A DNA stretch of 37,286 nt from a virus, in IMG/VR virus record IMGVR_UViG_3300008110_000167, positions 1-37,286 of that record; one strand, written 5' to 3'. The notes under the pieces are model-generated. The model worked only from the letters and a program-made list of their open reading frames with translations, made no database searches and was not told the origin of the DNA. Positions 7,033 to 8,565 of the stretch are shown piece after piece (positions within the stretch are counted from its first letter, which is position 1; the number at the start of each line of letters is the position of its first letter). The translations under genes and the position numbers were made by a program.

Positions 7033-7677
7033 ATGAAACTTCGTAGAAATGCAATTGACATTACAGGGCATAGGTTTGGTCGATTGGTGGCAGTAAAACC
7101 AATTGGAAAGCAGGGAGGAAAGATAGTTTGGGAATTTGACTGCGACTGCGGAAATAAAGCCAACTATCTTTCTTTTCTTCCAAGAAAAGGGCACGTTGTT
7201 TCTTGTGGATGCTGGAGAAGGCGAAGAAATGGATTGGCTTCTAGCCGTTCATATCAAATTTGGACAAAGATGATTAAGAGGTGTAATCAAAAAAATGACA
7301 AAGACTACATAAATTATGGAGGGAGAGGAATTAGGGTATGTAAAAGATGGGAAGTTTTTGAAAATTTTTATGCTGATATGGGAGAAGTTCCAGAAGGAAT
7401 GAGTATTGACCGCATAAATAATAACGGTGGATATTCAAAAGAAAACTGCCGATGGGCTTCACAAAAAACTCAGCATAGAAATAAGAGAACTAACCATTAC
7501 ATTTCATTCCAAGGAGAAATAATGACAGTTTCAGATTGGGCTGAAAAACTTAACATTAACTGTTCTACATTATGGAAACGACTGAAAAGGAATCTCCCGC
7601 TAGAAAAAGCCCTAGTACCTCACCTACTCAACGGTCGCTCAAGTATTTACGTGAAAAAGGGTATCACTGTGAAGTAG
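7033..7677 (+). CDS. HNH-type homing-like endonuclease with zinc-binding N-terminus
   Basis: This 214-aa protein has an N-terminal zinc-ribbon-like part (CDCG at 37-40 and CGC at 58-60), a YGGRGIRVCKRW segment (95-106), and an HNH-like core SIDRINNNGGYSKENCRWAS (124-143) followed by QHRNKRTN, a widespread layout of free-standing phage endonucleases. The region from about 160 (ISFQGEIMTVSDWAEKLN) is a small helix-turn-helix used for target recognition. The gene is AT-rich with many AGA/AGG codons, unlike its neighbours, and has its own 70-base upstream gap and AGGAGG site: signs of transfer. The last 18 residues are an out-of-frame reading of the start of the next gene. Confidence 0.8.
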   Translation: MKLRRNAIDITGHRFGRLVAVKPIGKQGGKIVWEFDCDCGNKANYLSFLPRKGHVVSCGCWRRRRNGLASSRSYQIWTKMIKRCNQKNDKDYINYGGRGIRVCKRWEVFENFYADMGEVPEGMSIDRINNNGGYSKENCRWASQKTQHRNKRTNHYISFQGEIMTVSDWAEKLNINCSTLWKRLKRNLPLEKALVPHLLNGRSSIYVKKGITVK

Positions 7678-7925
7678 TCGAACGATGGAATCCTTGGACA
7701 AAACAAAGACGCGATCTTTGGACTTGGTGCGACATTCTGGCTATACGCAAAGACGAAGTTCTGGCAGTACAGGTTACGGCATCTGCTGTTGCTGACCGTA
7801 TAAAGAAGATTCAGGATTCAGAAACGGTAGCAAAGGTAAGAGAGGCCGGTATTCGTATCGAAGTACATGGACACAGAAAGAATTCTAAGGGAAAATACGT
7901 CATGCGTATTGAAGACATCTCTTAG
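7572..7925 (+). CDS. Conserved PD-(D/E)XK-like phage protein flanked by HNH genes
   Basis: From residue 18 on, the 117-aa product matches a conserved phage family that normally begins close to PTQRSL..LR..GY and continues with VVERWNPWTKQRRDLW, CDILAI, then VQVTASAVADRIKKI and a C-terminal WRKN..G.YV.R..D-S type ending; here HGHRKN and YVMRIEDIS. The DILAI strand plus VQVT resembles a PD-(D/E)XK nuclease core in which the ExK motif is replaced by QxT, so catalysis is uncertain. The only upstream start (ATG 7572) lies 106 bases inside the preceding HNH gene and has no clear ribosome-binding site; the first 17 residues look unrelated to the family. The 3' end is duplicated in the next gene (see 8312-8362). 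Confidence 0.7.
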   Translation: METTEKESPARKSPSTSPTQRSLKYLREKGYHCEVVERWNPWTKQRRDLWTWCDILAIRKDEVLAVQVTASAVADRIKKIQDSETVAKVREAGIRIEVHGHRKNSKGKYVMRIEDIS

Positions 7926-7933
7926 GAGCAATT

Positions 7934-8362
7934 ATGGAAATTTGGGTTCCTGTATACGGTTTTCCTAACTATGAAGTTTCTGACATGGGCAGGATTAAAC
8001 GTATCAATCATATAGCGCACCACGCTCGTTATGGAGATAGACATTTGCCGGAAAGGATGTTGAATCCCAGAAAAAACGGTGATGGATATTGGCGTGTAAA
8101 GATTGGCGGGAAGTTGCGTTTTGTTCATGTTTTGGTTTTAGAATCTTTTGTTGAGCCAAGGCCAGATGGTATGCAAGCTTGCCACAACAACGGAAAACCA
8201 GAAGACAACAGGCTTGAAAATCTTAGATGGGATACGCCATCAAACAATGTGGCCGATAGAAAACTTCATGGGACTTATCAATGGGGGAAGAACAATCCTT
8301 ATTGGAAATCTCGCAAGAACGTGAAAGGCCGTTACGTGATTAGAGTGGAGGATATATCGTGA
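7934..8362 (+). CDS. NUMOD4/HNH homing-type endonuclease with captured C-terminal tail
   Basis: The 142-aa protein starts with a NUMOD4-like domain (WVPVYGFPNYEVSDMGRIKRIN, split around residue 22) and continues with an HNH_3 type core: NGDGYWRVKI, FVHVLVLESFVEPRPDGMQ, CHNNGKPEDNRLENLRWDT and NVADRKLHGT. Enzymes of this kind nick or cut DNA and spread their own gene by homing. Family proteins normally end near HGT...; here residues 127-142 (RKNVKGRYVIRVEDIS) are a second copy of the C-terminus of the preceding gene. AGGAGC lies 7 bases before the ATG. The stop overlaps the GTG start of the next gene, a coupling that presumably belonged to the interrupted gene. Confidence 0.82.
   Translation: MEIWVPVYGFPNYEVSDMGRIKRINHIAHHARYGDRHLPERMLNPRKNGDGYWRVKIGGKLRFVHVLVLESFVEPRPDGMQACHNNGKPEDNRLENLRWDTPSNNVADRKLHGTYQWGKNNPYWKSRKNVKGRYVIRVEDIS
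8312..8362 (+). repeat. Recoded duplicate of the upstream gene's 3' end (copy of 7875-7925)
   Basis: Bases 7875-7925 encode RKNSKGKYVMRIEDIS-stop and bases 8312-8362 encode RKNVKGRYVIRVEDIS-stop. Twelve of 16 residues are identical and three more are conservative, but ten of those twelve identical residues use different codons; overall about 28 of 51 bases match. The downstream copy still overlaps the next gene's start (GTGA) and is probably the original end; the upstream copy would be the imported, recoded replacement. Confidence 0.75.
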
Positions 8363-8565
8363 ACGCAGCGCACTTGAGCAAGTCAGACAGGCTACAACGA
8401 GTATTCAATTTGTTATCTAAGGGAGGCGAACACACAACACTAGAAATTATTCAAAAGGCAGGTGTTTGTGCAGTCAATAGCATTATTTCCGAGCTACGGG
8501 CAAACGGCTTTGACATTAGCTGTGAGCGCCGGGCAAACAAGTGGTTTTATAGGATGACAATATGA
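8359..8565 (+). CDS. Winged-helix/HTH-like small protein, 68 aa, GTG start
   Basis: The GTG at 8359 overlaps the preceding stop, with GAGTGGAGG upstream as ribosome-binding site. The product (SKSDRLQRVFNLLSKGGEHTTLEIIQKAGVCAVNSIISELRANGFDISCERRANKWFYRM) has the helix, helix, recognition helix, beta-wing pattern of a winged helix: TLEIIQKAG and VNSIISELRANG as the HTH, CERRANKWFYRM as the wing. Proteins of this kind are common next to phage replication or recombination genes; a DNA-binding role is likely, target unknown. It overlaps the glycosyltransferase gene by 4 bases. Confidence 0.7.
   Translation: MNAAHLSKSDRLQRVFNLLSKGGEHTTLEIIQKAGVCAVNSIISELRANGFDISCERRANKWFYRMTI

Follow-up and report, generated by a model that had tools for sequence, protein, structure and literature searches.

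INTRODUCTION

To spare its host gene, a selfish gene within a coding sequence usually depends on an intron or an intein. Some integrative elements, e.g. prophage e14 in icd, restore the 3′ end of their target and displace the old one. Mobile endonuclease ORFs (mORFs) with the same architecture as the locus described here are known from fungal mitochondria, in atp6 of Allomyces and in atp6, atp9, cox2 and nad3 of Glomus sp. (PMC3630166). The free-standing endonucleases of T4-like phages (SegG, MobE and MobA) are presented, in the parts of the account used here, as intronless genes at gene boundaries that are patchily distributed and move with flanking DNA (PMC2988022). In the HomeR drive, insertion is made at the 3′ coding end of a needed gene, and a re-coded 3′ end restores that gene (PMC7968924).

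Here we describe a locus in a 37,286-nt stretch of viral DNA, IMG/VR virus record IMGVR_UViG_3300008110_000167 (the window, by which we mean the whole of this stretch). An earlier note on this DNA, made from its letters, had seen that two unrelated adjacent genes end alike, and had proposed that the downstream one, an HNH gene, was inserted into the end of the upstream one. Our explanation, to which we give a probability of roughly 0.87, is that positions 7871-8311 form a mobile cassette of a replacement 3′ end and a NUMOD4/HNH gene, which would home by cutting and so act as a natural home-and-rescue element. The gene that the putative cassette interrupts is a conserved phage gene, and the interruption falls within its final 18 codons. 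It would exemplify a third route for selfish genes in phages, in which the missing piece of the gene is brought along, spelled differently.

MATERIALS AND COMPARISON SET

Relatives were collected by scanning IMG/VR with the 117-aa product of the interrupted gene (the target gene), yielding 80 loci. These are mostly metagenomic contigs, many of them short; the loci are grouped as freshwater phages and are denoted by L numbers below. Loci with HNH2 or a related HNH gene at the target gene are called carriers, and those in which the target gene runs straight into its neighbor are called uninterrupted.

RESULTS

Layout of the locus

Terminase and portal genes on the same contig mark it as a phage contig, and genes that are RecE-like and RecT-like by homology lie just upstream of the target locus. 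All features below are on the + strand. HNH1 (7033-7677; phrog_374, E=5e-64), which is unrelated to HNH2 and common to the window and L006-L008, lies upstream of the target gene (7572-7925), which encodes the 117-aa Hjc-like protein of PD-(D/E)XK type. The target gene has a replaced 5′ segment tied to HNH1 (7572-7664, the right edge approximate) and a replacement, recoded 3′ end from the HNH2 cassette (7871-7925) that occurs in carriers only. Its stop lies in the sequence TAGGAG (7923-7928), with which the recoded end also supplies the HNH2 ribosome-binding site. HNH2 as a whole (7934-8362) comprises a NUMOD4 plus HNH_3 core of a free-standing homing-type endonuclease gene (7934-8311) and an in-frame C-terminal tail (8312-8362) that is the displaced native 3′ end of the target gene. 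Within this displaced end is the GGAGG ribosome-binding site (8347-8351) of the next gene, a winged-HTH gene with a GTG start (8359-8565; PF14090, E=8e-6) that adjoins the target gene in uninterrupted relatives. The HNH2 stop and this start overlap as GTGA at 8359-8362, so the downstream copy has indeed kept the overlap.

HNH2 is a complete gene with a start, a stop and a ribosome-binding site of its own, and the frame upstream of it ends in a separate stop codon; neither Rfam nor the reading frames of the window revealed an intron or intein around it. The window has zero Rfam matches, and neither an RNA element nor a tRNA was found in it. The insert at 7871-8311 lacks an integrase gene, the HNH gene being its sole content. 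In another carrier, a DNA cytosine methyltransferase-like gene lies between HNH2 and the winged-HTH gene (L013:3757-4653).

Encoded proteins

Pfam finds NUMOD4 (PF07463, E=1.2e-11, 45.0 bits against a cut-off of 23.4) and HNH_3 (PF13392, E=1.2e-7, 31.7 bits against a cut-off of 24.8) in HNH2. The nearest solved structure is 1u3e, I-HmuI (E=1.3e-14, aligned over residues 4-129), and HNH2 retains H84 and N105, the histidine and asparagine of the active site.

No Pfam family scores above cut-off for the target protein. Its AlphaFold2 model (pLDDT 81), for which five rows from the phage collection were left out, has a small alpha/beta nuclease-like fold whose top four PDB fold matches are archaeal Hjc proteins (Holliday-junction resolvases) at probabilities of 0.99-1.00, the matches being modest by E-value (1.2e-3 to 7e-3) and TM score (0.37-0.43 for these four, 0.4-0.5 among the best fold matches). 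Since the expected ExK motif reads Q67-V-T69, nuclease activity of this Hjc-like family is uncertain. The recoded segment covers the last beta strand of the predicted model (residues 109-115), and its loss would therefore probably break the protein.

Two versions of the gene end

The C-terminus encoded by the target gene is RKNSKGKYVMRIEDIS and that encoded by HNH2 is RKNVKGRYVIRVEDIS, each followed directly by a stop. They share 12 of 16 residues and 28 of 51 bases; comparing the 17 codons, stop included, 2 are identical, 11 synonymous and 4 nonsynonymous. Coordinates, frames and both identity counts are as first read. The likeness is not a matter of chance, since the tail is the end of the upstream gene's own family, closing the target gene in dozens of uninterrupted relatives, and it is native to that family as the earlier note had supposed.

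That note had also taken the 3′ end of the target gene to be a synonymous replacement. The gene does have a replaced, differently spelled end, but its start is at 7871, four bases before the stretch that had been listed, and takes in codon 101; nor is it purely synonymous, as it brings 4-5 amino-acid changes that include Trp to His at codon 101, a position otherwise invariant. The replacement end may have been imported from a diverged lineage instead of being recoded in place.

Codon 101 encodes His in 17/17 carriers with the recoded end and Trp in 51 distinct non-carrier sequences; Trp is found in five GenBank relatives too. The change is confined to carriers and sits at the presumed cut site. 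As an exception, L127 (=L074; L074:4001-4728) keeps Trp and a native-like end beside an adjacent HNH gene that is 54% identical, so the link between the HNH gene and the recoded end is not absolute. This locus possibly represents a pre-insertion state, a dead enzyme or an enzyme with a different target.

The uninterrupted site

Near-clade uninterrupted target genes lead directly into the winged-HTH gene, with end DNA such as CGCAAGAACAGTAAAGGCAGATACGTCATTAGAGTGGAGGATATATCGTGA. The last 51 bases of uninterrupted near relatives match the window's HNH2 tail at 41-48 positions and the window's own gene end at 29-33, so that it is the downstream copy, and not the upstream end, that they resemble; the ends of L028-L033 encode the exact tail peptide, with 48/51 bases. 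HNH carriers end their target gene in the nearly invariant AGAAAGAATTCTAAGGGAAAATACGT-ATGCGTATTGA-GACATCTCTTAG. An exact pattern for the start of the recoded end gave eight matches in 2.9 million contigs, all eight in HNH carriers that were already known. The tail is foreign to HNH proteins, as expected: HNH relatives in other contexts are without it, and every tail-bearing HNH relative found adjoins the target gene. Neither of the two observations that the earlier note had named as refuting its proposal was therefore made.

The uninterrupted L029 serves as the empty site. It matches the left flank of the window insert at 111/120 bases and the right flank, the tail, at 48/51, while its match to the current gene end is 29/51, which bears out the proposal that the HNH gene was inserted inside the gene end and that the old end became its tail. 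The two flanks of the window together lack four bases of L029 around its Trp codon (C/G-TGG), and these would be a natural place for the cut. The L029-type uninterrupted junction reads ...CATGGGTGGCGCAAG..., and the recoded junction of the window reads ...CATGGACACAGAAAG....

The left edge of the replacement is sharp, between CATGG and ACACAG (7870/7871 in the window), and near-clade carriers have it at a common base. A comparison of L011, with HNH, and L019, without, illustrates how local the change is: 240/243 bases are identical over the first 243 nt compared, identity falls to 60% in the last 57 nt, and near-identity returns in the next gene after this abrupt divergence. Non-carrier pairs whose bodies are at least 0.95 identical served as a control; their ends stay at 0.88 identity or above, against 0.60 for L011/L019. 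HNH2 is thus an endonuclease ORF near the 3′ end of a conserved gene, which has received a foreign C-terminal segment in frame while its native C-terminus, the version nearest to uninterrupted kin, is displaced.

The replacement end travels with HNH2

The window and L013 have nearly the same HNH DNA (385/386) and recoded end (56/57), with gene bodies that match at only 194/261 positions. The carrier state needs eight changes on the tree of gene bodies, where an AU test rejects the grouping of all carriers in one clade (p=2.7e-6), and one change on the tree built from the last 57 nt. Among carriers, once body divergence is controlled for, divergence of the end tracks that of the HNH gene (partial Mantel r=0.66, p=0.003); with HNH divergence controlled for, the end does not track the body (r=-0.02). 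L015 combines a gene end of the cassette type with a tail, KRANGRYAIRVEDIS, that represents the native end in its lineage (42-44/51 with L046, L059, L061 and L062). HNH2 is accordingly polymorphic in its presence at one site and has moved laterally between genomes. At the level of DNA comparison, these data demonstrate that the cassette moved between diverged phages, and that in both movement and divergence the replacement end follows the HNH gene and not the body of the gene that it completes.

Fate of the displaced end

The displaced tail is in frame with its peptide intact in the window, L013, L015, L051 and L065, is frameshifted and still legible as a fossil in L063, L069 and L056, and is absent from L057, L114 and L126. 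In L011 it is replaced, an example of how secondary transfers can replace the old end completely. Since it is decayed or missing in several carriers, we regard the displaced tail as a relic. Its persistence in the window may be due to the GGAGG site and start overlap of the next gene. In carriers, the longest exact match of the recoded end to the region downstream of it measures 5-10 nt, and runs of this length are too short for efficient recombination.

Other homing genes and gene termini

The final ~35 codons of HNH1 overprint the start of the target gene in another frame, and HNH1 carriers have in common a replaced target-gene 5′ end with the alternative start METTEKES.... Comparing L006, with HNH1, to the HNH1-free L009, the first 60 nt from residue 13 match at 39/60 and the next 195 nt at 184/195; those 60 nt hold nine synonymous and four nonsynonymous codon differences, and L009 matches other HNH1-free relatives there at 57-58/60. 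HNH1 with its recoded 5′ end thus mirrors what is seen with HNH2. A search of viral contigs for relatives of HNH1 yielded two distant loci.

Similar termini occur in other genes. In the prophage-like L138 (L138:1625-2573), the tail of an HNH gene copies, at 35/36 nt, the native ninB terminus of L155 (L155:1501-1869), where ninB is uninterrupted; L138's own ninB end matches L155 at 17/30, and homology on the right flank is 123/150. In L125:102-871 an HNH gene follows a short DUF968-like ORF, assigned by eye, and has the tail MARADGRPEFRDAA, which reproduces how genes of the DUF968-like family natively end (39/45 nt to L158); this is probably the same 3′ architecture in a weaker pattern. An HNH gene also lies at the boundary of the winged-HTH gene and a glycosyltransferase-like gene (L019:4497-5700, L014:4946-5680). 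Between these two loci the first 54 nt of the glycosyltransferase-like gene match at 38/54 and the following 600 nt at 600/600, so perhaps this 5′ end is a further case of resupply; it is only suggestive, since L021 has a similar 5′ allele (47/54) without the HNH insert.

Another HNH family, zinc-finger-like and distinct from these, was seen between the SSB-like and target genes (L009:1800-2273, L017:1978-2412, L035:3522-3995, L067:3560-3982, L114:1227-1673). Several HEG families occur in the stretch from the SSB-like to the glycosyltransferase-like gene, which is a hotspot for them.

In eleven GenBank phages that have related HNH genes (Gsput1, Xavia, SAC, GMA4, Ramsey, LilyPad, SEN22, Bombitas, Cane17, Peregrin and Medea1), the HNH tail did not convincingly repeat, in frame, how the gene upstream ends, so resupply of the end is recurrent and not universal among HNH2-related genes. 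The tail alignment of LilyPad scored just above shuffles and was set aside as low-complexity, lysine-rich sequence. Comparison of Kintu with CUB19 disclosed no 5′ recoding beside Kintu's upstream HNH gene, and an HNH profile search of genome contigs returned only three distant matches.

The cases counted are the Hjc-like gene at its 3′ end (HNH2) and 5′ end (HNH1), ninB at its 3′ end (L138), the DUF968-like gene at its 3′ end (L125) and perhaps the glycosyltransferase-like gene at its 5′ end. On these, the balance tips modestly toward resupply of altered termini being a strategy that intronless homing genes of phages use repeatedly, in several unrelated genes and at 5′ as well as 3′ ends. If it is, phages would harbor natural home-and-rescue drives by which selfish genes inhabit functional coding sequence without introns or inteins.

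DISCUSSION

Mechanism and alternatives

In the mechanism that we propose, the Trp codon (GG-C-TGG-CGC) or its close vicinity would be where HNH2 nicks or cuts an allele that lacks the insert. A genome with the cassette would then be the template for repair, to which RecE/RecT of the phage may contribute; homology would come from the body of the gene on the left and from its displaced end on the right. The changed end would have three effects: it would keep the target protein intact, remove the HNH2 cut site so that re-cutting is avoided, and prevent the two copies from recombining, by which the HNH gene would be lost. Of this account, the sequence comparisons themselves establish that the insertion displaced the old end, that the replacement end is inherited together with HNH2, that the cassette moved between diverged phages and that the displaced end decays.

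The alternative that the earlier note had offered, with a native upstream end and an HNH tail acquired from a related phage by recombination, draws on the real resemblance of the tail to gene ends of related phages. All close uninterrupted relatives, however, have the tail-type end at the target gene itself and no recoded end occurs apart from the HNH gene, while both flanks of the window insert match one uninterrupted relative, L029, far better than the window's own gene end does. We reject this alternative for the window and would allow it very little probability. Ordinary co-conversion from a diverged donor at a gene boundary, in which the differing end has no role in immunity or stability, deserves a little more weight but is still improbable. 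HEGs are known to drag flanking DNA along, according to the portion of the T4 account used here (PMC2988022), the old end of L011 is fully replaced and not displaced, and L021 bears its similar glycosyltransferase-like allele without an insert. Conversion tracts vary, whereas near-clade carriers have the left edge at one base; the Trp-to-His change is limited to carriers; and the window, L013, L015, L051 and L065 have kept the old end as an extra copy, which makes the event an insertion and not a replacement.

The intact frame and peptide of the tail in those same five loci could also be read as the mark of a C-terminal domain that has a function in HNH2, acquired through domain shuffling and used e.g. 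in DNA binding, with the likeness to the upstream gene reflecting such use. The need to retain the next gene's ribosome-binding site and overlapping start also accounts for an intact frame, though, and related HNH genes at the same target have tails that are frameshifted, truncated or unrelated (L011, L056, L057, L063, L069, L114 and L126). Given these decayed and missing tails we reject the functional domain, the least credible of the alternatives. The home-and-rescue cassette remains our explanation of the locus. Sites without the insert, recent insertions, tails in decay and relocated cassettes are all on record for this one element, so that origin, spread and ageing can be read directly. 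For annotation, the terminal 50-60 nt of a gene beside a homing endonuclease can differ in history from the remainder of that gene.

Comparison with known systems

A search of the open-licence literature found no phage report of the replacement-end architecture. The architecture itself is already known from fungal mitochondria, and its HNH form in phages appears new within that literature. The fungal mORFs, like HNH2, lie near the 3′ end of a gene, supply a foreign C-terminal segment in frame and displace the native C-terminus, which matches close relatives better; the inserted and native copies differ strongly in DNA and little in protein (PMC3630166). The mORFs are of LAGLIDADG or GIY-YIG type in mitochondria, whereas HNH2 is of HNH_3/NUMOD4 type in dsDNA phages. 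Unlike theirs, the window locus has compact, overlapping genes, start signals of the next gene within the displaced end, and a mirror-image 5′ version.

With the T4-like free-standing endonucleases HNH2 has in common that it is intronless, patchy and mobile and overlaps the upstream gene, as far as the consulted portion of that account goes (PMC2988022). The T4 endonuclease genes occupy intergenic positions or divide a gene in two (MobA, Aeh1 MobE), and that portion describes no replacement end for them. I-HmuI (1u3e) has the same HNH active-site histidine and asparagine, but is an intron-encoded nicking enzyme of 174 aa with Asp before the histidine, where HNH2, which is shorter and has no intron, has Cys; nor does I-HmuI end in a displaced gene end. 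Elements of the e14 type use site-specific integrases and att sites, while the HNH2 insert holds the HNH gene only.

The HomeR drive and the HNH2 cassette both target the 3′ end of a gene, insert there and supply a re-coded 3′ end (PMC7968924). HomeR is synthetic, Cas9-based and made for Drosophila, whereas the HNH2 cassette is natural, HNH-based with putative cleavage, and resident in phages. It is a natural counterpart of the recoded-rescue gene-drive design, and it comes with a record of whether such designs persist.
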